Below, one piece after another: positions 433-16,885 of a DNA stretch of 64,000 nt. How positions within the stretch are numbered: the first letter of the stretch is position 1; each line of letters opens with the position of its first letter. The notes under the pieces are model-generated. The model was not told the origin of the DNA. It saw only the letters and a program-made list of their open reading frames with translations, and did not search any database. The DNA is from Pseudomonas sp. R37(2017). Lineage in GTDB: Bacteria > Pseudomonadota > Gammaproteobacteria > Pseudomonadales > Pseudomonadaceae. The position numbers were made by a program, and so were the translations under genes. The stretch spans positions 186,001-250,000 of the forward strand of contig NZ_NEHO01000005.1 of NCBI RefSeq assembly GCF_002113375.1. The letters are read 5' to 3'.

Positions 433-3400
433 ATGAACAAGTCTGTCGGTGTGCTTCGTTTGTTGTGGCTTGCGTGTCTGGTGGTGGTGGCCGCTGTCAT
501 CGCTTTAGCGGTGAACACCGGAACATCTGAGTCAGCTCCGTCGCCTCAGTCCTGTACCGCACCCGCTTATGCGAAGGATACGCCCTATGAACAAGGGCAA
601 CAGGTACAGCACGCCGGCCAGCAGTTTGAATGCTGGAAAGATGACGAGGCACCGCTTGGTGTCGGCAGTTGGCAATGGTGCCGGCAACCGGCCTATGAGC
701 CACTCCTTCCAACCAACCACTGGAAAGACGCGTGGAAGGCGCTCGGTGAATGTGGTGGCTTCGAGGGCAATCGCCTGACGCTGAGCTTTTCCACCCTCAG
801 CGGCAAAGCTCCGCTGAAACCGGCGGTGCCCGGTGTCGCTCGCGCTGATCAGATGGTCACCGGGACTTTGCGCTGCAAGGCTGAAGAGATTTCGATCAGC
901 GCGAAGGCCAGCGAAACGATCCACCTCGATAATCTGAAAGCCTGCGACTACCAACTGGTGATGAACAGCGCAGATGGATACATCCCGCTGAACACCCCGC
1001 GCATTGTTTCGTTCAAGGAGGCGCAAGGGGCGGAGCAAGCCGTGACGGTGAAGTATCGTCCACCGGTGGATGTGAGCAAGCTCAGTGGTTTGCCGGGGAT
1101 AAAAATCGAGCTGTTTGCCCAGGGTCTTGTTCAACCCAGGCAGATGGCCATGGGCAAGAACGTCTTGTATGTCGGCTCCAGCGCGATCCCTTCGTACGTC
1201 TATGACGGAAAAATCGGCGACATGATTTACGCGTTGCCGCTGGATGGGGCGGGTAAACCGACGGGCATTCACGTCATTGCCAGCGGTCTGGAAGAGCCTC
1301 ACGGCGTCGCGTATCGCGACGGTGATCTGTATTACTCGACCACGGGTGGTCTGTATCGCTTGCGTAACGCGGACGATCATTACAAAGACCCGAAACCCGA
1401 ACTGGTTTTCAGATTTCCGGCAGACGATAACTTGTTTCCCTTGCCCCCGCTGTCGTCCGGTTCGAACACTCGCATCTGGCACATGAAACACCCCTTGCGC
1501 TTCAATCCAGTCGATCCATCGGACAAATGGCTTTATACGGCCGTCGGCATTCCGTGCAACTTGTGCATGATCCCTGCCGACAAGCGCTATGGGACGGTCC
1601 TGCGCTACTCCCTGGAAACGGGGGCGTCCGAGATTCTGGCCTCGGGGGTACGTAACTCGGTCGGCTTCGACTGGAACCCCAAGGACGGCAAAATATGGTT
1701 CAGCGACAATAATCGCCAAGGCTTCCCCAACCCTGACGAGGTCAACGTAATTCGGGGCCCCGGGTTGCATTTTGGTGTGCCTTATCGGTTTGGCAGGGAC
1801 ACGCCCGGATTCACCCAGGAAGAGTACCTGAACCCGGGTGTGATCCAGCCACCGCTGGTGCCCGGTGCCATTGTGTCCGACAAGTCGCTCGAGCAGATCG
1901 ACCCTGCCGATTATGTGCCGGCAGCTTTTGAGTCGGGTACCAACACGGCGCCGCTCGGGGTCAAGTTCTGGTCAGGTTACCCGGCCACTGCCGATACCCA
2001 GCAATTGCTGGTCGCCGTGCACGGCGCGGGCTCCACCGCCCGTCCAGGCATGGACATACAAATGTTGACCATCCAGGGGGGGACGCGCGTGGTCAACCAG
2101 ATCCCGCTGATCAATGGATTTGTGCAGGACCCGGATCGATTTGATGTCTATTGCCTGGACAACTCGTGCATTGGGCGCCCCGTCGAGTTTCTTGAATTGG
2201 CCGATGGCAGCCTGTTGATCAGCGACGACGTCGCCGGGGTCATCTATCGCGTGCGCTATGACGCCACCGGACTGCCGCAGACCGAATTGACGTTGCGTCC
2301 CATGCTGTCACCCCCCGGCCTGGAAAACGAGATGGTCAGCGGTTATTTGATTGCCCCCGACGGCAATAGCCGGCTGGTGCAAATGTCATGGAATGCGTTG
2401 AACAGTAAGTCTCCGCTGGTTCTGAAAGGGCTGGCGTATGGTGAGTATCAGTTGCGGCTCAATGATGTAAAAAACTGGATTCCCGAGGTGCGCAACACAT
2501 CCTTCACGCTATCGGAAACCAACAAGACTCATACCATCACCACGGGTTACCGCGAGCGGCCGATCAAGCTTGAAGTCAAGATCACGATCCAGGCACCGGC
2601 CAGGCCTGCTTCAGTCACCGATGCCCAATGGCACATCAGCCTGGTCAATGAGTCCCGGAGCAATGCCGAACCACAGGTCATAAACATTCCATGGGGCGGG
2701 ACTGCGACGCAGCTCCTCGACTATGGCAAGTACAAGGTTATCTACCCGTTTTACTCGAAGGAAAAACCGGCGCCGGAACTGGAGTCGGTGGTGATCGATG
2801 AGTCCAGTCAGGACCGGCAGCTCCCCCTCATCACTTACCAACATGTCGAGAGCCTGGGCGAAACGGTTCTGGCGGGGGCCTGCACCAAGTGTCATGCGGT
2901 CGAGTACTTCAATAGTGCCAGCAAGGCCTTGCTCTGGAGCGTCGCGGGGCGGGAGGCGTTGGTTAATCAAATCAAGACGATGCCGGTTTCAGGGCATTGC
3001 GACACCACCTGCGCGACTGAAATCAGTAATCACTTGTTCGACGTCGTCTGGAAACCTTACCTGGATCAGGGCGAATCCTATGGCGTGCGGCAGTTGCGAT
3101 TGCTGACACCCACTGAGTATGCCGCCACCGTCCGGGACATCCTGGGTGTCGAAGTCAATCCCGAGAAGCTGCCGGCCGACAAGTCCGAAAAAGACTTCAA
3201 GTATCCAGGGGAGGCGAACATGGGCGTTCTGCAGGCAGAGGACGTCAAACTGTTCTACGACATGGCATTGTCGGTGGCAGAAAAGGTTTCGCCATCGCGG
3301 TTGAGCGCGCTGGCAACCTCCAGGATGGGCACCGACCTGGTCACCTCCCTGGGTTATCAGTTGTTCCGACGGCCCGTGACTGACGCCGAGCGGTTGCGTT

Positions 3401-4548
3401 ACCAGAAAATCCTCGACGAGCAAGGGGCGCCGGCTGTAATCACCGCTCTGATGATGTCGCCGAACTTCCTCTATCGCTCTGAACTGGGAGCGGCGACGGC
3501 AAACAACGTGTACGAGTTAACGCCGTTCGAGGTCGCGACAGCACTCTCTTACGCATTCTCGGGCACGACTCCGGATGTTCAACTGCTGGCCAAGGCACAG
3601 CGTAACGAACTGCGGACCTCACAGCAGATCTCTGCGGAAATCGAGCGAATGATGCAAACGGATCGCGGTATCGAGCAGTTCAACCGATTCGTCAGCTACT
3701 ACGTCAAAACCGCCCGCGGTGTGCAGGAAAAACCGGGGCTGAGCAAACACATGATCGAACTCATGGCCCAGGAGCAGTATTTGCTGAGCAAAAACCTGTT
3801 GCTGAGTTCGGGAACCCTGAACGAGATGTTCAACCCGGGTTACACCTATTTGAATCAGGACCTGGCCGCGCATTATGGAATCAGCGGTGTCACGGGCAGC
3901 ACGATGCAAAAGGTCGCGGTGAACGAAAAACGGGGAGGGTTGTTGCATCTGGGGCTGACTCAGGCTGCCACGTCGGATCTGGTGAGCACCTCATTGGTCA
4001 AGCGCGGAATCATGGTGCGTGAACAGATGTTCTGCCGTGAATTCGGTGCCCCGGTGGAGCCCGAGCCTGACGGCCCTACGTTTCCGGCCCGGGCAATCAC
4101 CACCCGTGAATACTGGGATCTGGTAAACGGTGAACATGCTTCGAATGGGGCTTGCTGGCAGTGCCATCAATTCATGAATGACACCGGGGCGGCGTTGCAG
4201 AACTACGATGCGGCCGGCCGTTATCGGACCATGGAAAACGCCTACAACTACAACCTGTATCCACAAATTTTGCCGATCGACGCCTCCGGTCCGTTTATCA
4301 CTTCGACCGGAACCGAGCACATCAACGACGTTCGGGATATTGCCCGAATCATTCCACGCCATCCGGCGTCTCAGTTCTGCATGGCCGACAGCTACTTCCG
4401 GTTTGTATTCGGCAGCAAATCCGATGCCTCGACCTCGGGGACCGTGAAAGCGATTGCCGATGGTTTGAAAAACTCAGGGTCCCTGGCAGAGATGTTGCGA
4501 ACTCTGGGCACCTCCAAGGCGTTCACCTACAAGACCGAGAGGAACTGA
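433..4548 (+). CDS. Large exported multi-domain DUF1592-family cytochrome-like protein with sugar-dehydrogenase-like propeller
   Basis: A 1371-residue protein. Visible parts, in order: an N-terminal hydrophobic segment (about 8-27) acting as signal or anchor; a Cys/Trp-rich module (about 40-110, with WCRQPAYEP and HWKDAWKALGEC) resembling ChtBD3/CBM5-12 carbohydrate binders; a beta-propeller of the soluble aldose/sorbosone dehydrogenase type (about 223-640); beta-rich linkers; a heme motif CTKCH at 817-821; then DUF1587 (about 886-950), DUF1595 (RRPVTDAER, about 979), DUF1592, DUF1588 with a second heme motif CWQCH at 1241-1245, and DUF1585. The DUF series is known mostly from planctomycete and myxobacterial genomes; its biochemistry is unassigned. 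The start is supported by GAGG 8 bases upstream. DUF1552 follows after 2 bases, so they are one operon. I infer an envelope redox function on a carbohydrate-like substrate; the substrate is unknown. Confidence 0.75.
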   Translation: MNKSVGVLRLLWLACLVVVAAVIALAVNTGTSESAPSPQSCTAPAYAKDTPYEQGQQVQHAGQQFECWKDDEAPLGVGSWQWCRQPAYEPLLPTNHWKDAWKALGECGGFEGNRLTLSFSTLSGKAPLKPAVPGVARADQMVTGTLRCKAEEISISAKASETIHLDNLKACDYQLVMNSADGYIPLNTPRIVSFKEAQGAEQAVTVKYRPPVDVSKLSGLPGIKIELFAQGLVQPRQMAMGKNVLYVGSSAIPSYVYDGKIGDMIYALPLDGAGKPTGIHVIASGLEEPHGVAYRDGDLYYSTTGGLYRLRNADDHYKDPKPELVFRFPADDNLFPLPPLSSGSNTRIWHMKHPLRFNPVDPSDKWLYTAVGIPCNLCMIPADKRYGTVLRYSLETGASEILASGVRNSVGFDWNPKDGKIWFSDNNRQGFPNPDEVNVIRGPGLHFGVPYRFGRDTPGFTQEEYLNPGVIQPPLVPGAIVSDKSLEQIDPADYVPAAFESGTNTAPLGVKFWSGYPATADTQQLLVAVHGAGSTARPGMDIQMLTIQGGTRVVNQIPLINGFVQDPDRFDVYCLDNSCIGRPVEFLELADGSLLISDDVAGVIYRVRYDATGLPQTELTLRPMLSPPGLENEMVSGYLIAPDGNSRLVQMSWNALNSKSPLVLKGLAYGEYQLRLNDVKNWIPEVRNTSFTLSETNKTHTITTGYRERPIKLEVKITIQAPARPASVTDAQWHISLVNESRSNAEPQVINIPWGGTATQLLDYGKYKVIYPFYSKEKPAPELESVVIDESSQDRQLPLITYQHVESLGETVLAGACTKCHAVEYFNSASKALLWSVAGREALVNQIKTMPVSGHCDTTCATEISNHLFDVVWKPYLDQGESYGVRQLRLLTPTEYAATVRDILGVEVNPEKLPADKSEKDFKYPGEANMGVLQAEDVKLFYDMALSVAEKVSPSRLSALATSRMGTDLVTSLGYQLFRRPVTDAERLRYQKILDEQGAPAVITALMMSPNFLYRSELGAATANNVYELTPFEVATALSYAFSGTTPDVQLLAKAQRNELRTSQQISAEIERMMQTDRGIEQFNRFVSYYVKTARGVQEKPGLSKHMIELMAQEQYLLSKNLLLSSGTLNEMFNPGYTYLNQDLAAHYGISGVTGSTMQKVAVNEKRGGLLHLGLTQAATSDLVSTSLVKRGIMVREQMFCREFGAPVEPEPDGPTFPARAITTREYWDLVNGEHASNGACWQCHQFMNDTGAALQNYDAAGRYRTMENAYNYNLYPQILPIDASGPFITSTGTEHINDVRDIARIIPRHPASQFCMADSYFRFVFGSKSDASTSGTVKAIADGLKNSGSLAEMLRTLGTSKAFTYKTERN

Positions 4549-4550
4549 TC

Positions 4551-5915
4551 ATGGGCATTTTGAAAAGTCGTCGACGCTTTCTTGCGGGTCTGGCTGCGAC
4601 GAGTGTCTTTGGTCCGTTGACCCAGTTCGGATTAGTGCGCATGGCATTGGCGGGGCAATCCGAGCAAGCGAGGCTGAAGGTCGTGTTCGCGGTGGTCCCC
4701 GATGGATTGGCAGTGGATTCCTACAATGGCGGTGGTTTTGGTGATGGGCGCGGATTGTGGCACCCCACTGCACAGGGGACGGATACCACGGCCTTTACGC
4801 TCAATGAAGTCAGTTCGGAACTGGCCGCCTATCGCAACCAGTCGTTGTACCTGCGCGGGATTATTCTGGGGCCTGGGAACGTAGGGCATAGTGGCTGGAA
4901 CTGGGTATTGCGTGATAGCGCACAGAGTCAATCGTCTATCGATGTGTTGCTGGGGCAAGCGTTGCCGGGCACTGAACCGTCCCACCGAAGCCTGTTTGCC
5001 GGCCCCCACGCCGGAATCGATGGAACGCCCTGGTTCGTGTCGTTTCAGGGCAGTGCGATTCGTACCCCCTACCGTGACCCGGTGCTGATGGCTGAATCGT
5101 TGTTCAAGTCACCCGCTCAGGCTCGGGGCGCACGACAACCTGGGGCCGGTGCGCTGCTGGAGGCATCCCTGGCGGATATCCAGGAAATCAGAGTCAAGCT
5201 TTCTGCCGGAGAGCGGCAAAAGCTTGATACCCACCTCGACTCGGTGGAGCAGGTCATCAAAGACCTGGAGGAAACACGGCCGCCGGTGGGGGCTTGTGAG
5301 CCTGTGACGCTCGAGCCCCTGGATTACCGATCGGCAGCGCATCGCACCCGCATCCAGGCGGATCATCACAAAGTGGTGGCCACCGCCCTGGGCTGCGGGA
5401 TAACCCGGGTCGCCACTCTACAGATCGGGCGCTCGGCGGAGTCGCTCAATATCGTTGATGTCAGTTCCACCAGTAATCCCCATGATTGTGCACATCGTTA
5501 TGCCGGGGAAGAGCCCTGGAGAGGAACACGGAAATGGTACGTCAAGCAGATCAAACAGTTTATGGATGAACTGGCCAGGCACCAGGACCCGCACGTGCCC
5601 AGTGACAATCTGCTCCAACATACACTCGTCGTACTCACCAGCGAAATGGCCGATGGAGCCCCTGAACACATGATCGATATGCCGATGCTGTTAATGGGGG
5701 GCGCGAGCGGATTATTGAAAAGCGGGGACGGTTCAGGACGGTACTTCAACATTACGTCGCAAGGCGATCGTCAGCACCACACGGGGAACCCGGTGATCGG
5801 CAGGAAATTCGTCGACATGCAGCGTATCTGGGCAACTGTTGCCAAGGCCGCCGGAACCAGCGTGACGTATGGCGGCAATATCGAGCCCCTCAGCGGAATA
5901 TTCACCAACGTATGA
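4551..5915 (+). CDS. DUF1552 protein with twin-arginine signal
   Basis: A 454-residue protein beginning MGILKSRRRFLAGLAATSVF, a clear Tat signal (RRRFLAG plus hydrophobic stretch to about residue 34), so it should be exported folded. The rest fits DUF1552, a family related in fold to DUF1501 and alkaline-phosphatase/sulfatase-like proteins and habitually encoded beside DUF1592-type cytochromes. GAGGAA overlaps the end of the preceding gene and sets the ATG. A strong terminator follows at once, so the operon is only these two genes. Function is unknown; co-occurrence suggests a partner or maturation factor for the 1371-residue protein. Confidence 0.8.
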   Translation: MGILKSRRRFLAGLAATSVFGPLTQFGLVRMALAGQSEQARLKVVFAVVPDGLAVDSYNGGGFGDGRGLWHPTAQGTDTTAFTLNEVSSELAAYRNQSLYLRGIILGPGNVGHSGWNWVLRDSAQSQSSIDVLLGQALPGTEPSHRSLFAGPHAGIDGTPWFVSFQGSAIRTPYRDPVLMAESLFKSPAQARGARQPGAGALLEASLADIQEIRVKLSAGERQKLDTHLDSVEQVIKDLEETRPPVGACEPVTLEPLDYRSAAHRTRIQADHHKVVATALGCGITRVATLQIGRSAESLNIVDVSSTSNPHDCAHRYAGEEPWRGTRKWYVKQIKQFMDELARHQDPHVPSDNLLQHTLVVLTSEMADGAPEHMIDMPMLLMGGASGLLKSGDGSGRYFNITSQGDRQHHTGNPVIGRKFVDMQRIWATVAKAAGTSVTYGGNIEPLSGIFTNV

Positions 5916-5928
5916 ATCAAAACGACGA

Positions 5929-5959
5929 TGCCAGTCAGATTGATTGACTGGCATTTTTT
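5929..5959 (+). terminator. Terminator of the DUF1592/DUF1552 operon
   Basis: Perfect 9-bp stem TGCCAGTCA/TGACTGGCA with a 7-base loop, followed by six T. It lies 14 bases after the DUF1552 stop. Confidence 0.85.
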
Positions 5960-6120
5960 GAAGCATCGCGCACGGGTCCTTGTTTCTTTTGTGGTGGCCC
6001 TGGTTACTTCAGGCGCTCCCTCGGTTTGCTCGGGCCATTCAGCAATCTGATGGAGCGTGGGTCGGGCAAACTCCTTCGCTACACTCGGTGCATCTTCCGA
6101 GAACAACAAGGCTGTTTGCT

Positions 6121-8120: not shown

Positions 8121-9311
8121 TCAGTTCTCCGACCGCTGTCCCACCAGACTATCCACCGACGGCACCCGCGTGTCGCTTTCCATCTGTGTGTCGTGTTCGA
8201 GCTGATGGCTGAAGCGGTCCAGTGAGCCTTTGGCCGGCTGTGCATCGCTGGCAAACACCGGCGGGCTGAGGATGTATGCGCCCAGCAGGCGGCTCAGGGC
8301 GGCGAGGCTGTCGATGTGGGTGCGCTCGTAGCCGTGGGTGGCATCGCAGCCAAAGGCGAGCAGGGCGGTGCGAATGTCATGGCCGGCGGTCACCGCCGAA
8401 TGGGCGTCGCTGAAGTAGTAGCGGAACAGGTCGCGGCGTGCCGGTAACTCGTTGTCGCTGGCCAGGCGCAGAAGGTGGCGCGACAGGTGATAGTCATACG
8501 GCCCGCCGGAATCCTGCATCGCGATGCTCACCGCATGCTCGCTGGAAAATTGGCCTGGCGCGACTGGTGCGATGTCGATGCCGACGAATTCACTGACGTC
8601 CCAGGGCAACGCCGCCGCCGCGCCGCTGCCGGTTTCCTCGGTGATGGTGAACAGCGGATGGCAGTCGATCATCAGCTCTTCAGCACTGTCGACGACGGCT
8701 TTGAGCGCCGCCAGCAGCGCGGCCACCCCGGCCTTGTCGTCGAGGTGGCGGGCGCTGATATGGCCGCTTTCGGTGAACTCCGGCAGCGGGTCGAAAGCGA
8801 CGAAATCGCCGACGCTGATGCCCAGCGATTCGCAGTCGGCACGGGTAGCGCAGTAGGCGTCCAGGCGCAATTCGATGTGATCCCAACTGATCGGCATTTC
8901 ATCCACGGCGGTGTTGAACGCGTGCCCGGACGCCATCAGCGGCAAGACGCTGCCGCGGATCACACCGTTGTCGGTAAACAGGCTGACCCGGCTTCCTTCG
9001 GCAAAACGGCTGGACCAGCAGCCGACCGGTGCGAGGGCCAGGCGACCATTGTCCTTCACCGCACGCACCGCCGCGCCGATGGTGTCCAGGTGGGCGCTGA
9101 CGGCGCGATCGGGGCTGTTTTTCCTGCCCTTGAGCGTGGCGCGGATGGTGCCGCGACGGGTCATTTCGAAGGGAACGCCGAGTTCTTCCAGACGCTCGGC
9201 GACGTAGCGCACGATGGTATCGGTGAACCCGGTGGGGCTGGGAATGGCGAGCATTTCCAGCAGCACTTTTTGCAGGTAAGCGAGGTCTGGTTCGGGGATT
9301 TTGCGGGTCAT
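8121..9311 (-). CDS. M42-family peptidase of the NAGGN osmoprotectant operon
   Basis: A 396-residue aminopeptidase-like protein. Metal-ligand motifs of M42/M20-like enzymes are visible: SAHLDT, HLDDKAG, TEETGSG, GIDIAP and YFSDAHS. The reading frame extends upstream to 9500, but AGGAG just before the ATG at 9311 and the family N-terminus (MTRKIPEPDLAYLQK) set the start. It is the third gene of the asnO-ngg set, and this three-gene association is conserved in pseudomonads. Its task is not established; turnover of N-acetylglutaminylglutamine amide or of its dipeptide precursor is a reasonable inference. Confidence 0.85.
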   Translation of the reverse strand: MTRKIPEPDLAYLQKVLLEMLAIPSPTGFTDTIVRYVAERLEELGVPFEMTRRGTIRATLKGRKNSPDRAVSAHLDTIGAAVRAVKDNGRLALAPVGCWSSRFAEGSRVSLFTDNGVIRGSVLPLMASGHAFNTAVDEMPISWDHIELRLDAYCATRADCESLGISVGDFVAFDPLPEFTESGHISARHLDDKAGVAALLAALKAVVDSAEELMIDCHPLFTITEETGSGAAAALPWDVSEFVGIDIAPVAPGQFSSEHAVSIAMQDSGGPYDYHLSRHLLRLASDNELPARRDLFRYYFSDAHSAVTAGHDIRTALLAFGCDATHGYERTHIDSLAALSRLLGAYILSPPVFASDAQPAKGSLDRFSHQLEHDTQMESDTRVPSVDSLVGQRSEN

Positions 9312-9373
9312 GGAAACTCCTGATGAGTTGAGCGCATCGATGGTTTCGATGAAGGGGGTTGTGTCTGTCAGTC

Positions 9374-9390
9374 CGCCTTCGCGAGCAGGC
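9374..9390. repeat. Truncated REP remnant
   Basis: CGCCTTCGCGAGCAGGC matches the first 17 bases of the complete REP arms seen at 7991-8018, after which the match stops. It lies in the 94-base gap between ngg and the peptidase gene. Confidence 0.6.
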
Positions 9391-9405
9391 CTAGACAACA
9401 CATGA

Positions 9406-11154
9406 CTAAGAGACCACCGGCTGACTGTGCGGAAACAACAAATCCACAAACCGCTCCGCCGTGGGCTGCGGTTCATGATTGGCCAGCCCGGCCCGTTCAT
9501 TGGCTTCGATAAACACGTAGTTCGGCTGGTCGGCTGCGGTCACCATCAGGTCGAGGCCGACCACGGGAATGTCCAGCGCCCGCGCGGCTCGCACCGCCGC
9601 TTCCTGCAGCGTCGGGTGCAGGATCGCCGTGACATCCTCGAGAATGCCGCCGGTGTGCAAGTTCGCCGTGCGTCGTACGAACAGGTGTTCGCCGGCCGGC
9701 AGGATGCTGCTGTAGTCGTACCCGGCGGCCTGCACGGTGCGCCAGGTTTCCCGGTCCAGCGGGATCTTGCTTTCGCCGTCCGTGGCCGCTTGTCGCCGCC
9801 GGCTCTGGGCTTCGATCAAGGCGCCGATGGAGTGCTGGCCGTCGCCGATCACCTCGGCCGGCCGGCGAATCGCGGCCGCGACCACTTCAAAACCGATCAC
9901 CAGGATTCGCAGGTCCAGGCCTTGGTGAAAGCTTTCCAGCAGCACGTGGCTGTCAAATTCGCGGGCGGCTTCGATGGCTTGCTGCACCTCTTCGATGGTC
10001 TGCAAGTCGACCGCCACGCCCTGGCCCTGTTCACCGTCCAATGGTTTGACCACCACGCGCAGGTGTTCATCGAGGAATGCCATGTTGTCGTCGGCGTTAC
10101 CCGCCAGTTGCTGTGCCGGCAGGTTCAATCCGACAGCCTTGAGCACTTTGTGGGTCAGGCTTTTATCCTGGCAAAGGCTCATGCTGATGGCGCTGGTCAG
10201 GTCGCTCAGTGACTCACGGCAGCGCACCCGGCGCCCGCCATGGCTGAGAGTGAACATCCCGGCGTCGGCGTCATCGACGTGTACATCGATGCCACGCCGA
10301 TGTGCTTCCTCGACAATGATCCGTGCATAGGGGTTGAACGCGGCTTCCGGGCCTGGGCCGAGAAACAACGGCTGATTGATGCCGTTCTTGCGCTTGATGG
10401 CGAAGGTCGTCAGGTTGCGAAAACCGAGCTTGGCGTAAAGGTTTTTCGCCTGGCGGTTGTTGTGCAGCACCGACAGGTCGAGGCAGGCGAGCCCGCGGCT
10501 CATGAAGTGTTCGATCAAATGCCGCACCAGCACTTCACCCACGCCCGGCCGCGCGCAATACGGGTCGACCGCCAGACACCACAGACTGCTGCCGTGTTCC
10601 GGGTCGTTGAAGGCCTTGCGGTGATTGAGACCCATGACGCTGCCGATGACCGCGCCGCTGTCTTCGTCTTCGGCCAGCCAGTACACCGGGCCACCCAGAT
10701 GATGCGCAGTGAGCAAGGTGGCATCGATCGGCAGCATGTCGCGGGCCTGATACAGATGATTGATCGCCTGCCAGTCGGCATCGCTTTGCGCGCGTCGAAT
10801 GCGAAAACCACGAAAAACCCGGGTCGCCTGACGGTAGTCGCTGAACCACAGCCGCAGAGTATCGGACGGATCGAGGAACAGCTGCGTCGGCTCCAGCCCC
10901 AGCACTTGCTGGGGCGCGGCGACGTACAGGGCGATGTCCCGCTCGCCGGGCTGTTCGTTGAGCAACTCTCCGGCCAGGCTCGCGGCATCGGCAAAGGTGT
11001 GACCGATCAGCAAGCGGCCCCAACCGCAATGCACGGTAATCGGCGCCGCGCCGAGCGCACAGCCGTCTTCGGCAAGGCGTGCCTGCAAGCGTTCGTAGGA
11101 GGGCGTCTGGCCACGCAACAGGCGTTGGCTGAAAGCCGTGGCTTGAGATTTCAT
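9406..11154 (-). CDS. ngg: N-acetylglutaminylglutamine synthetase
   Basis: A 582-residue two-part enzyme. The N-terminal half (to about 270) is a GNAT acetyltransferase-like region (DPYCARPGVGEVLVRHL). The C-terminal half (about 285-575) is an ATP-grasp ligase resembling cyanophycin synthetase (VVKPLDGEQGQGVAVDL, VFIEANERAG). The family makes the dipeptide N-acetylglutaminylglutamine, which AsnO then amidates to NAGGN, a compatible solute accumulated in high osmolarity. It starts 3 bases after the asnO stop and its Shine-Dalgarno must lie within asnO, so the two are translationally close. Confidence 0.92.
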   Translation of the reverse strand: MKSQATAFSQRLLRGQTPSYERLQARLAEDGCALGAAPITVHCGWGRLLIGHTFADAASLAGELLNEQPGERDIALYVAAPQQVLGLEPTQLFLDPSDTLRLWFSDYRQATRVFRGFRIRRAQSDADWQAINHLYQARDMLPIDATLLTAHHLGGPVYWLAEDEDSGAVIGSVMGLNHRKAFNDPEHGSSLWCLAVDPYCARPGVGEVLVRHLIEHFMSRGLACLDLSVLHNNRQAKNLYAKLGFRNLTTFAIKRKNGINQPLFLGPGPEAAFNPYARIIVEEAHRRGIDVHVDDADAGMFTLSHGGRRVRCRESLSDLTSAISMSLCQDKSLTHKVLKAVGLNLPAQQLAGNADDNMAFLDEHLRVVVKPLDGEQGQGVAVDLQTIEEVQQAIEAAREFDSHVLLESFHQGLDLRILVIGFEVVAAAIRRPAEVIGDGQHSIGALIEAQSRRRQAATDGESKIPLDRETWRTVQAAGYDYSSILPAGEHLFVRRTANLHTGGILEDVTAILHPTLQEAAVRAARALDIPVVGLDLMVTAADQPNYVFIEANERAGLANHEPQPTAERFVDLLFPHSQPVVS

Positions 11155-11157
11155 CGG

Positions 11158-12930
11158 TCAGATTCCTTGTTCGCTGAGCCACAGGTTGAGGGCCGCCAGT
11201 TGCCACAGCTTCGAGCCATGCAAGGGTGTCAATTGTCCCTGCGGATCGGTCAGCAGGCGGTCGAGCATCGCCGGGTTGAACAGGCCGCGATCCTGGCTCG
11301 GATCGAGCAGCAACTCGCGTACCCAGTCCAGTGTGTCGCCTTGCAAATGCTTGAGGCCCGGCACCGGGAAGTAACCTTTCTCGCGGTCGATCACTTCACT
11401 GGGAATCACTTGCCGCGCGGCTTCCTTCAACACGTGTTTGCCGCCGTCCGGAAGTTTGAAGCGCCCCGGAATCCGTGCCGACAGCTCCACCAGGCGGTAG
11501 TCGAGAAACGGCGTGCGCGCTTCCAGCCCCCAGGCCATGGTCATGTTGTCGACGCGTTTGACCGGGTCGTCCACCAGCATCACTGTGCTGTCCAGGCGCA
11601 AGGCCTTGTCCACCGCCGCCTCAGCACCGGGCTGGGCAAAATGGGCTTTGACGAAGTCGCCAGCGGCGTCCGTCGCGGTCAGCCATTTCGGTTGGACCGT
11701 GGCGGCATAGTCGTCGTAACTGCGGTCGAAAAACGCTTCGCGGTACGCGGCATACGGATCGCTCGCATCGTCCACTTGCGGGTACCAGTGGTAGCCGGCG
11801 AACAGTTCGTCGGCGCCCTGGCCGCTTTGCACCACCTTGCAATGTCTGGCCACTTCCCGGGAGAGCAGGTAGAAGGCAATGCAGTCGTGGCTGACCATCG
11901 GTTCGCTCATGGCGCGGAACGCGGCGGGCAATTGTTCGATGATCTCCTTTTCGTCGATGCGCAGTTGATGATGCCGGGTGCCGTAGTGTCGGGCGATCAG
12001 GTCGGAGTACTGGAATTCGTCACCGCGTTCGCCGCCGGCATCCTGGAAACCGATGGAAAAGGTCGACAGATTGTCCACGCCGACTTCGCGCAACAAGCCT
12101 GTCAACAGGCTCGAATCGACCCCGCCCGACAGCAGCACACCGACATCCACGGCCGCCCGTTGGCGAATGGCGACGGCTTTGCGAGTAGTGTCGAGCACGC
12201 AGTCGCGCCAGTCTTCGAGGGTCAGGTTTTTCTCATCGTCCTGTAGTCCATAGGGCAGGGTCCACCAGGTTTTCCGCTCGGTGCGGCCGTCGGCTTCGAT
12301 GCGCATCCAGGTGGCCGGCGGCAGCTTTTCAATGCCCGCCAGCAAGGTGCGCGGTGCCGGGACCACGGCGTGGAAATTCAGATAATGATTGAGCGCCACC
12401 GGATCGAGGATCGGGTCGATGTCGCCACCCTTGAGCAACGCCGGTAGCGCGGAAGCAAAGCGCAGGCGCTGGCCGGTGCGCGACAGGTACAACGGCTTCA
12501 CACCGAGACGGTCGCGGGCGATGAACAGGCGTTGGGCATCGCGCTCCCAAATGGCAAAGGCAAACATGCCGTTGAGTTTCGGTAGCAAGGCCTCGCCCCA
12601 GGCGTGATAGCCCTTGAGCAACACTTCGGTGTCGCCGCCGGAGTAAAAGGCGTAGCCCAGGCTTTCAAGCTCCGCGCGCAGTTCCGGGAAGTTGTAGATC
12701 GCCCCGTTGAAAGCCAGGGACAAGCCCAACTGCGGGTCGATCATCGGCTGTGCCGAGCCGTCCGAGAGGTCCATGATTTTCAGGCGCCGATGGCCCAGGG
12801 CAACCGGCCCCTGGCTGTGAAAGCCCCAGGCGTCAGGGCCGCGGGGGGCCAGGTGATGGGTGATTCGTTCGATGGCTGCAAGGTCTGCAGGTTGATGGTC
12901 AAAACGTAACTCGCCAGCTAATCCGCACAT
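11158..12930 (-). CDS. asnO: N-acetylglutaminylglutamine amidotransferase (asparagine-synthase family)
   Basis: A 590-residue class II glutamine amidotransferase. It starts MCGLAGELRF with the nucleophile Cys2. The glutaminase domain runs to about 210, followed by an asparagine-synthase domain with the pyrophosphate loop VLLSGGVDSSLLTG. The ATG at 12930 (AAGGAA just upstream) exposes Cys2, whereas the open frame would add 17 residues and block it. It is the first gene of the NAGGN operon, so its promoter should lie in the 170 bases before it. A second asparagine-synthase-like gene occurs in the O-antigen locus at 54559. Confidence 0.93.
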   Translation of the reverse strand: MCGLAGELRFDHQPADLAAIERITHHLAPRGPDAWGFHSQGPVALGHRRLKIMDLSDGSAQPMIDPQLGLSLAFNGAIYNFPELRAELESLGYAFYSGGDTEVLLKGYHAWGEALLPKLNGMFAFAIWERDAQRLFIARDRLGVKPLYLSRTGQRLRFASALPALLKGGDIDPILDPVALNHYLNFHAVVPAPRTLLAGIEKLPPATWMRIEADGRTERKTWWTLPYGLQDDEKNLTLEDWRDCVLDTTRKAVAIRQRAAVDVGVLLSGGVDSSLLTGLLREVGVDNLSTFSIGFQDAGGERGDEFQYSDLIARHYGTRHHQLRIDEKEIIEQLPAAFRAMSEPMVSHDCIAFYLLSREVARHCKVVQSGQGADELFAGYHWYPQVDDASDPYAAYREAFFDRSYDDYAATVQPKWLTATDAAGDFVKAHFAQPGAEAAVDKALRLDSTVMLVDDPVKRVDNMTMAWGLEARTPFLDYRLVELSARIPGRFKLPDGGKHVLKEAARQVIPSEVIDREKGYFPVPGLKHLQGDTLDWVRELLLDPSQDRGLFNPAMLDRLLTDPQGQLTPLHGSKLWQLAALNLWLSEQGI

Positions 12931-13102
12931 AAATTCCTTACCGGTTTTTCCGTTGGGGAGGGTCGATCGATACCGCGCCAAAACGGCGGGTACTCAGAAA
13001 GTGACCCTCCTCGGCAAGGGGAGTTTTAGATCGATGAGTTATATGTGCGACAGACCACCGCCGAATCGCCCTCGGGAAGAGCGACTTCGGCTGTTGTATC
13101 GA

Positions 13103-15370: not shown

Positions 15371-16885
15371 ATGTTTGAATCTGCCGAAATCGATCACGCC
15401 ATCGACAAAGACACCTACGACGCCGAAGTCCCGGCCCTGCGCGAAGCGTTGCTCGAAGCGCAATTCGAATTGCAGCAGCAACGCCGCTTTCCGGTGATCA
15501 TCTTGATCAACGGCATCGAAGGTGCCGGCAAGGGTGAGACGATCAAGGTGCTCAACGAATGGATGGACCCGCGCCTGATCGAGGTTCGCACGTTCGACCG
15601 GCAAACCGACGAAGAGCTGGCGCGGCCGCCGGCCTGGCGTTACTGGCGGATGCTGCCGGCCAAGGGTCGCATGGGGATTTTCTTCGGCAACTGGTACAGC
15701 CAGATGCTGCAGGGGCGGGTTCATGGTCAATTCAAGGATCCGCGGCTCGACCAGGCTATCAACGGTGCCGAGCGCCTGGAAAAGATGCTCTGTGACGAAG
15801 GTGCGCTGATCTTCAAGTTCTGGTTTCACCTGTCCAAGAAACAAATGAAGGCACGCCTCAAGGCGCTGGCCGACGACCCGCTGCACAGTTGGCGCATCAG
15901 TCCGCTGGACTGGCAGCAATCGCAAACCTACGACCGGTTCGTGAAGTATGGTGAGCGGGTGCTGCGCCGCACCAGCCGCGACTATGCGCCGTGGCATGTG
16001 ATCGCCGGGGCGGATGCGCATTATCGCAATCTGGCCGTGGGGCGGATTCTGCTGGCGGGCCTGCAGGGTGCATTGAAGCGGCCGAAGATCCATCCGGAGA
16101 AGGTCAGCGCCGCGCCAGTGTTCCCCAGTGTCGATCAAGCGAACCTGATCGACAGTCTGGACCTGACCCTGCAGTTGGACAAAGAAGATTACGAAGAACA
16201 GCTGATCACCGAGCAGGCGCGGTTTTCCGGGTTGATGCGTGACAAGCGCATGCGCCGCCACGCGCTGGTGGCGGTGTTCGAGGGTAATGACGCGGCTGGC
16301 AAGGGCGGGGCGATCCGTCGGGTAGCGGCAGCGCTCGATCCACGCCAGTACAGCATCGTGCCGATTGCCGCGCCCACCGAGGAAGAACGGGCGCAACCGT
16401 ATCTGTGGCGTTTCTGGCGGCATCTGCCGGCCCGCGGCAAGTTCACTGTGTTCGACCGCTCGTGGTATGGCCGGGTGTTGGTGGAGCGCATCGAAGGTTT
16501 TTGCAGCCCGGCAGATTGGCTGCGCGCGTACGGCGAGATCAACGATTTCGAGGAACAGTTGACCGATGCCCGGGTGATCGTGGTCAAGTTCTGGCTGTCT
16601 ATCGACAAACAGACGCAACTGGAGCGCTTTGAGGCGCGCGAAAAGATCCCCTTCAAGCGCTTCAAGATCACCGATGACGACTGGCGCAACCGTGAAAAAT
16701 GGGATGACTATCGCACGGCGGTCGGCGACATGGTCGACCGTACCAGCACCGAGATCGCGCCATGGACCCTGGTGGAGGCCAACGACAAGCGTTGGGCACG
16801 GGTCAAAGTGTTGCGCACCATCAACCGGGCACTGGAAGAAGCCTTTGAAAAGTCCGACCGGCAGGAGAGCAAGAAGAACAAGTAA
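15371..16885 (+). CDS. pap: Polyphosphate:AMP phosphotransferase (two-domain PPK2)
   Basis: A 504-residue tandem PPK2 protein. Each half has its own Walker A: GIEGAGKGE at about 48-56 and GNDAAGKGG at 305-313. The tandem form is the class II PPK2 that phosphorylates AMP to ADP with polyphosphate. GGGAG before the ATG at 15371 favours this start over the one 27 bases upstream. A homologous pap lies near the NAGGN genes in P. aeruginosa too. In class II enzymes the C-terminal half is the catalytic one; here both P-loops look intact. Confidence 0.92.
   Translation: MFESAEIDHAIDKDTYDAEVPALREALLEAQFELQQQRRFPVIILINGIEGAGKGETIKVLNEWMDPRLIEVRTFDRQTDEELARPPAWRYWRMLPAKGRMGIFFGNWYSQMLQGRVHGQFKDPRLDQAINGAERLEKMLCDEGALIFKFWFHLSKKQMKARLKALADDPLHSWRISPLDWQQSQTYDRFVKYGERVLRRTSRDYAPWHVIAGADAHYRNLAVGRILLAGLQGALKRPKIHPEKVSAAPVFPSVDQANLIDSLDLTLQLDKEDYEEQLITEQARFSGLMRDKRMRRHALVAVFEGNDAAGKGGAIRRVAAALDPRQYSIVPIAAPTEEERAQPYLWRFWRHLPARGKFTVFDRSWYGRVLVERIEGFCSPADWLRAYGEINDFEEQLTDARVIVVKFWLSIDKQTQLERFEAREKIPFKRFKITDDDWRNREKWDDYRTAVGDMVDRTSTEIAPWTLVEANDKRWARVKVLRTINRALEEAFEKSDRQESKKNK

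Follow-up and report, generated by a model that had tools for sequence, protein, structure and literature searches.

A two-gene Pseudomonas locus combining an AA12-like propeller and two heme motifs with a DUF1552 partner

Proteins have been described from Cellvibrio and Teredinibacter that are secreted and carry, on one chain, carbohydrate-binding modules (CBMs), a redox head, a cytochrome c of the X183 type and, at the C-terminus, an X132 domain with a CxxCH motif (PMC8981238, PMC10916295), and a CBM2-DUF1592 protein was assigned to Cellvibrio in the table of a lignocellulose-degrading community (PMC6004670). We analysed a related locus in a 64,000-nucleotide stretch of Pseudomonas sp. R37(2017), hereafter the window (contig NZ_NEHO01000005.1, positions 186,001 to 250,000). 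It consists of two genes arranged head to tail with a gap of 2 bp, gene 1 for a multi-domain redox protein and gene 2 for a DUF1552 protein. Gene 1 very probably belongs to the class represented by Cbp2D and TERTU_3803. Three results are new here: DUF1552 is a fixed partner of the C-terminal heme block of gene 1; the propeller of gene 1 is, as judged by a structure model and sequence profiles, closest to the fungal AA12 pyrroloquinoline quinone (PQQ) dehydrogenases; and carriers without AA10 or GH18 matches speak against two general roles, electron donation to lytic polysaccharide monooxygenases and chitin breakdown. The features of the locus, with the evidence for each, are as follows.

433..4548, + strand: gene 1, exported multi-domain redox protein, 1371 aa (open reading frame call, Pfam, 14 orthologous loci)
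433..540, + strand: N-terminal hydrophobic export signal or membrane anchor of gene 1, residues 1-36 (sequence, ortholog N-termini)
565..672, + strand: CBM5/12-like module of gene 1, residues 45-80 (match under the Pfam cut-off)
1060..2262, + strand: predicted AA12/GSDH-type propeller of gene 1, about residues 210-610 (structure model, fold and profile matches)
2320..2832, + strand: beta-rich stretch of gene 1 separating propeller from cytochrome, about residues 630-800 (model secondary structure)
2830..3087, + strand: X183-type c-type cytochrome domain of gene 1, about residues 800-885 (profile and alignment: C817-x-x-C820-H821, M850, C856/C860)
2881..2895, + strand: first heme motif of gene 1, CTKCH, residues 817-821 (kept in 19/21 compared sequences)
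3097..4545, + strand: X132-like block DUF1587-1595-1592-1588 with C-terminal tail, about residues 889-1371 (Pfam, alignment)
4153..4167, + strand: second heme motif of gene 1, CWQCH, residues 1241-1245 (kept in 21/21 compared sequences)
4551..5915, + strand: gene 2, DUF1552 (HXXSHH family) protein, 454 aa, with a Tat-type signal (open reading frame call, Pfam)
5481..5495, + strand: H311-D-C-A-H315 of gene 2 (both His invariant in 21/21 rows)
5928..5960, + strand: intrinsic-terminator-like repeat 3' of gene 2 (inverted repeat, sequence)

Four described systems resemble this locus. As is the case for gene 1, Cbp2D of Cellvibrio japonicus (with Cbp2E) is exported and carries an X183 cytochrome and a C-terminal X132/DUF1587 block with CxxCH; its head is YceI/X158, and its binding module, to which gene 1 has a putative counterpart, is a CBM2. 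TERTU_3803 of Teredinibacter turnerae likewise unites CBMs, a propeller (pf08450-X173), X183 and X132 in one secreted protein, but it has CBM10/CBM2 and X122, and its propeller-type domain, perhaps of another subfamily, neither bound PQQ nor oxidized glucose (PMC10916295). The fungal AA12 pyranose dehydrogenases (CcPDH, TrAA12) gave the top fold and profile matches, and CcPDH also combines a cytochrome, an AA12 propeller and a CBM in one protein; however, its cytochrome is b-type and N-terminal, whereas that of gene 1 is c-type and C-terminal. Finally, PSCyt3/PSD proteins of Planctomycetes and Verrucomicrobia share the DUF block, and some PSCyt genes have CBMs, although a propeller of the gene 1 kind is not described in the text of PMC5615132. 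The earlier note on this DNA had taken the parts of gene 1 to be normally separate. This view has to be given up, since fusions of CBM, propeller, cytochrome and DUF block are known (PMC10916295, PMC12055684), with Cbp2D (PMC8981238) and TERTU_3803 (PMC10916295) as precedents, and also occur in two of our own loci, L096 and L097. Rather than being unique in its domain combination, gene 1 is the Pseudomonas/Lysobacter version of a described class.

A scan of genome contigs yielded 14 orthologous loci, 12 from Pseudomonas and two from Lysobacter, in which gene 1 is 50-87% identical and gene 2 is adjacent in each; conservation at this level is not due to chance. Among 398 Pseudomonas genomes drawn, the heme block was present in 12, the host among them (13 matched, and G085 was dropped for a match of 27% over about 147 residues with an internal stop), and the same 12 genomes hold DUF1552, side by side with the heme block by coordinates in 12/12. 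In a draw of 194 genomes from the order, all 23 genomes with a heme block, several of which match it only in part, also hold DUF1552, and DUF1552 was found without a heme-block match in two genomes, G039 (below the cut-off) and G449 (75% complete). The Fisher value for this co-occurrence (7e-28) serves as a description only, because the genomes are related. When 15 distant loci were read after the order search, as a part of all its matches, DUF1552 lay directly downstream in 14, the exception being L090, whose DUF1552 gene follows about 6.7 kb further down that contig. One genome, G514 (L094, L095, L101, L102), contained seven heme-block matches and 11 DUF1552 matches, and L095 has an extra partial DUF1552 copy at 15721-16332.

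Gene 2 matched the DUF1552 family at 1.3e-25 (91.1 bits versus a cut-off of 30) and begins with a twin-arginine motif, RRRF at residue 7. The check for a twin-arginine translocation (Tat)-type signal covered gene 2 and 14 distant partners, the N-termini of the other 13 orthologs having been trimmed beforehand; 13 of the 14 partners have the twin arginine well within the first 45 residues, and the remaining one shows KRRN where this stretch ends. H311 and H315 were invariant throughout an alignment of 21 DUF1552 rows, which comprised six of the 14 ortholog rows and 15 hits, among them one partial copy. The literal HxxSHH motif is absent, gene 2 reading HDCAHR, with neither the Ser nor the last His retained. 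The cited text of the Cbp2D and TERTU_3803 papers (supplements and figures excluded) names no DUF1552 partner, a literature search by family names found no paper tying DUF1552 to the Cbp2D-type class, and the cited text of PMC12542752 holds nothing on a DUF1552-like partner, nor does that of PMC10916295 hold anything on an operon or gene neighbourhood. PSCyt3 genes in Verrucomicrobia are reported to adjoin, usually, a family of unknown genes (PMC5615132). DUF1552 looks like an overlooked part of the Cbp2D/TERTU_3803 class, and should Cellvibrio carry a DUF1552 gene next to cbp2D, that gene would be the obvious target for deletion.

The propeller of gene 1 was claimed from the letters alone, with structure prediction named as its test, and the fold was indeed present in the model. 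In the single gene 1 protein the GSDH match of Pfam fell under the cut-off (E 0.0019), and GSDH was matched in 14/14 rows of the ortholog alignment. The predicted structure (m9d67987defa1) spans residues 205-1371 of gene 1, placing the CBM region outside the model, and its best fold match was the AA12 dehydrogenase 6i1q (Z 22.7, 3.9 Å over 325 residues), tied with 2ism (Z 22.6). Identity to the fungal AA12 structures in this search was about 19-20%, and the list of matches was filled by propellers, making it informative for the propeller and barely so for X183, X132 and the beta-rich regions. Profile A6, built from 12 rows comprising the gene 1 propeller and free-standing bacterial relatives, found 6jt5 first (E 2.1e-17). 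These two values, rather than a count of blades in the model, place the domain in the six-bladed sGDH/AA12 propeller fold.

To compare the cofactor pocket, residue equivalences between CcPDH and gene 1 were taken from the profile A6 alignment, with numbering counted by hand. The PQQ ligands of CcPDH are Arg273, His363, Arg430, Asn431, His539, His560 and Arg621, and its calcium ligands are Asp451 and Ser449 (PMC6881789). Six of the seven PQQ side chains are kept in gene 1 (Arg273 as R236, His363 as H350, Arg430 as R407, Asn431 as N408, His560 as H530 and Arg621 as R582), and each is invariant in 14/14 ortholog rows and 12/12 A6 rows.

Several observations weigh against a quinohemoprotein reading of the locus. 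The seventh PQQ ligand, His539, corresponds to N504, which is Asn in 13/14 ortholog rows and Ser in one. The calcium positions, placed via TrAA12 (Ser240 and Asp242 aligning with N427 and Q429), the calcium loop of CcPDH being unaligned, show that the acidic ligand is replaced: Q429 is Gln in 14/14 ortholog rows, and the carboxylate (Asp/Glu) calcium ligand of AA12 is missing from gene 1. All nine free-standing bacterial relatives keep His and Asp at the N504 and Q429 positions, and the SWN loop that follows H530 is altered in gene 1. H530 alone is no AA12 marker, because every free-standing relative compared has it. That the TERTU_3803 domain did not bind PQQ also counts against such a reading. 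As regards the models, that of gene 1 has a mean predicted local distance difference test score (pLDDT) of 68.8 and a predicted template modelling score of 0.48, and its domain arrangement is not trustworthy because this confidence is middling; the DUF1552 model (pLDDT 39.5) was too poor for a fold search. The putative binding module is also faint: in the whole gene 1 protein CBM5/12 scored E 0.0071 (16.8 bits versus a cut-off of 26.2), and at E≤0.001 the host gene 1 gave no CBM5/12 match, the two matches of the host genome lying in another open reading frame.

The changes at N504 and Q429 amid six kept PQQ residues suggest that the propeller is an altered quinoprotein, or else that it uses a different cofactor. 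In addition, the gene 1 propeller profile did not find the GSDH domains of L096 and L097, suggesting that the class holds more than one propeller subfamily and that the result for TERTU_3803 may not transfer to gene 1.

For the CBM5/12-like module, the claim of the earlier note survives in part. Some match was obtained in 11/14 ortholog rows at E≤1, the best reaching 9.5e-5 and 20 bits, still below the Pfam cut-off of 26.2. A six-frame scan of the 12 carrier genomes at E≤0.001 gave CBM5/12 matches in five, and inside gene 1 itself in only two (G272 and G331). The N-terminus of L090 (5340-8390), a relative with a YceI head, was matched by the profile of the gene 1 CBM region (7.6e-5), suggesting that a CBM5/12-like region may be common to different heads.

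The back end of gene 1 has the X183 domain and the X132 domain with CxxCH that mark redox proteins of the Cbp2D/TERTU_3803 type. Gene 1 has exactly two CxxCH motifs, at 817 and 1241, and the X183 signature (CxxCH, Met-Pro and CxxxC) was kept in 19-20 of 21 compared sequences. Its X183 profile found the X183 domain of the Cbp2D-like protein of L094 (E 7.9e-10), and the latter found 8q1v (4.1e-8), 8q1w (1.6e-4) and 7b21 (1.9e-4). Among these, 7b21 is the solved X183 structure of Cbp2D, and 8q1v and 8q1w ('putative lipoprotein') are presumably the TtX183 structures, their codes being absent from the main text of PMC10916295. Four DUFs scored over the Pfam cut-off in gene 1, namely DUF1592 (4.6e-25), DUF1588 (9.1e-21), DUF1587 (3.2e-7) and DUF1595 (1.8e-8, 35 bits versus 34.2). 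DUF1585, the remaining member of the full five-DUF series previously claimed, gave no Pfam match at E≤1; the gene 1 C-terminus aligns with relatives that carry it. X132 probably equals the DUF1587-1595-1592-1588 block, with or without 1585, because the Cbp2D legend names DUF1587 and the TERTU legend has 'DUF1687' (sic) where X132 begins. As a separate observation, residues 967-1012 or so (window 3331-3468), in the DUF1595 region, bear a weak likeness to phycobilisome ApcE linker repeats, profile A1 matching 7vea at E 3.8e-4 over about 45 residues.

Relatives were sought with an X183-X132 alignment against the 194 genomes of the order; 15 loci were read and nine proteins were domain-scanned. 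Their heads were YceI (L090, L093, L094), GSDH (L096, L097) or fn3 with ChitinaseA_N (L092), and their binding modules CBM2, CBM26 and a lectin. L097 has the order CBM2-GSDH-cytochrome-DUF block, as in gene 1. In L089 (5602-9534) a ricin-B lectin, extra cytochromes and fn3 precede the heme block, with CxxCH at 201, 485, 747 and 1179 and DUF1552 downstream. L093 and L094 present a row of three genes, coding for a Cbp2E-like protein (CBM2-YceI, 343/345 aa), a Cbp2D-like protein (CBM2-YceI-cytochrome-DUF block, 1063/1083 aa) and DUF1552.

The likeliest mechanism, to which we give about an even chance, is an envelope quinohemoprotein system in which AA12-type oxidation of a saccharide feeds two c-type hemes together with DUF1552. 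The propeller of gene 1 would be the electron-generating head, oxidizing a saccharide, either free or as a chain end held by the CBM5/12-like module, and reducing PQQ. Electrons would pass first to the X183 c-type heme, with H821 and probably M850 as its two ligands, and from there to that of the C-terminal DUF1587-1588 block, with which gene 2 would associate, most likely forming its acceptor or a second active site. What the analysis shows is the two genes with their domains, conservation and constant pairing, together with the modelled propeller fold and the greater part of its PQQ pocket; we infer that PQQ and heme are bound, that a sugar is the substrate, in which order the electrons move and that the two products form a complex. 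The interest of such a unit would lie in a polypeptide that holds both the hemes and a likely electron-generating head, with the partner gene in every carrier genome compared. With regard to the cofactor, pqqB was over the cut-off in 12/12 Pseudomonas carriers versus 290/318 Pseudomonas genomes; being nearly everywhere in the genus, its co-occurrence is uninformative and only indicates that PQQ is likely available.

A different reading, which we consider unlikely but worth weighing, is that the propeller is no longer redox-active (having a binding or lactonase-like role) and that X183, the DUF block and DUF1552 together make up an electron conduit or a di-heme enzyme. The replaced acidic calcium ligand and PQQ histidine, the absence of PQQ from the TERTU_3803 propeller (PMC10916295) and the other heads (YceI, extra cytochromes) on relatives with the same back end are in agreement with it. 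Furthermore, a design study (PMC7789669) found DUF1587, 1588, 1592 and 1595 in facultatively anaerobic and not in aerobic Pseudomonas strains and, by co-localisation, counted them among eight domains tied to anaerobic respiration. The same listing qualifies the earlier view that the series is no usual Pseudomonas trait: it is rare (12/398 genomes), but it is not new to the genus. However, the 14 loci have no common neighbour beyond the pair, and hence no link to respiration genes there, and six of the seven PQQ side chains are invariant in 14/14 rows although the orthologs differ at 13-50% of positions, which is unlike what would be expected for an unused site.

We also considered that X183-X132 and DUF1552 might be the two components of a single oxidative enzyme acting on polymers, so far unrecognised and independent of LPMOs (LPMO, lytic polysaccharide monooxygenase), with exchangeable binding modules and heads (AA12-type propeller, other GSDH propellers, YceI, extra cytochromes), DUF1552 being the missing catalytic partner of Cbp2D-type and planctomycete PSCyt3 proteins; we regard this as quite unlikely. 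For the locus itself, the corresponding proposal, that the heme block and DUF1552 attack a polymer independently of LPMOs, with the head (propeller, YceI or another) serving solely to supply electrons, appears improbable. Its appeal is that the back end and DUF1552 are constant and the heads and binding modules variable, that two DUF1552 histidines are invariant in 21/21 rows, and that cbp2D and cbp2E deletions grew worse than an LPMO deletion, for which the authors propose direct cleavage (PMC12542752). Nevertheless, the cited text of these papers reports no activity of X132 or DUF1552 proteins, and no DUF1552 gene is among those named for the six-gene set that was active on soluble cellulose in E. 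coli (PMC12542752).

AA10 (PF03067) gave no match in the host genome. It was without a match in 5/12 Pseudomonas carriers, the host included, and present in 7/12 as compared with 202/398 genomes in all (Fisher p 0.77). GH18 was found in 0/12 carriers by a search that matched 6/14 control genomes, with no genus background and with GH19 and other chitinases not searched. Since five of the 12 carriers are without AA10 and none gave a GH18 match, neither LPMO donation nor chitin degradation suits the pair as a general role; we rejected the former because AA10 is no commoner among carriers than among the rest and the latter on the GH18 result. The least probable reading is that gene 1 supplies electrons to AA10 LPMOs, the part suggested for Cbp2D and reported for the fungal CcPDH. 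In its favour, the CjX183 domain of Cbp2D can reduce bacterial LPMOs in vitro (PMC8981238) and CcPDH, with a domain logic as in gene 1, drives LPMO action (PMC5960967), but the host and four more of the 12 carriers lack an AA10 match, there is no enrichment, and the TtX183 domains failed to serve an LPMO (PMC10916295). What stands of the periplasmic enzyme first proposed, oxidizing or processing a polysaccharide-linked substrate and passing electrons to hemes, is its export, its dehydrogenase-like character, the two heme motifs and the DUF1552 partner; its polysaccharide side is doubtful in view of the sub-threshold CBM5/12, the lack of GH18 matches in the carriers and a host without AA10. The most useful results are the fixed DUF1552 partnership and the retention of the unit by carriers without AA10 and GH18, and since some Pseudomonas carriers are without AA10, the role of the class can be tested there free of LPMO effects.

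The surroundings of the pair differ between carriers. Only the gene pair is constant over the 14 loci, with no further neighbour in common, so it appears as an accessory two-gene module; the host genome has one DUF1592 match. About six neighbour contexts could be told apart by eye (L032-034; L035/040; L036-039/042/043; and L041, L044 and L045 each alone), that of the host being the same as in L032-L034 and L107. The right flank of the host locus (window 9610-13046) equals the left flank of L039 (1-3437) and of L043 (1-2880), indicating that two carrier groups hold the pair at different sites of one chromosomal neighbourhood. Probably, the module was inherited within groups and moved between them. 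In L042 (4470-9857), on contig 263 of Pseudomonas cedrina subsp. fulgida, both genes are broken in frame, by either draft error or decay, and this locus was excluded from the alignments.

The remaining observations concern the ends of the locus and its flank. Open reading frame calls, Pfam and the sequence bore out the two reading frames, the CxxCH motifs at 817 and 1241, the Tat-type DUF1552 partner and the terminator given in the earlier note. The terminator-like repeat covers 5928-5954 with 10-bp inverted arms, and its final base opens a T6 run at 5954-5959; the program lists the stem on the minus strand only, and the plus strand was read from the sequence. No NCBIfam family matched the gene pair, searches of the PDB by sequence with the whole gene 1 protein or the DUF1552 protein gave nothing useful, and the beta-rich region at about 630-800 of gene 1 had no family match. 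The ortholog N-termini of gene 1 are mixed, with long hydrophobic stretches in several Pseudomonas, what we take to be AxA-like sites in L037/L038 and a presumed lipobox-like LAAC in Lysobacter L045. Because these N-termini point to export and several orthologs are perhaps membrane-tethered, 'envelope' is a safer label for gene 1 than 'secreted'. Downstream, on the minus strand of the window (8121-12981), peptidase-like, acetyltransferase/ligase-like and asparagine-synthase-like genes resemble what we take to be an N-acetylglutaminylglutamine amide osmolyte cluster.

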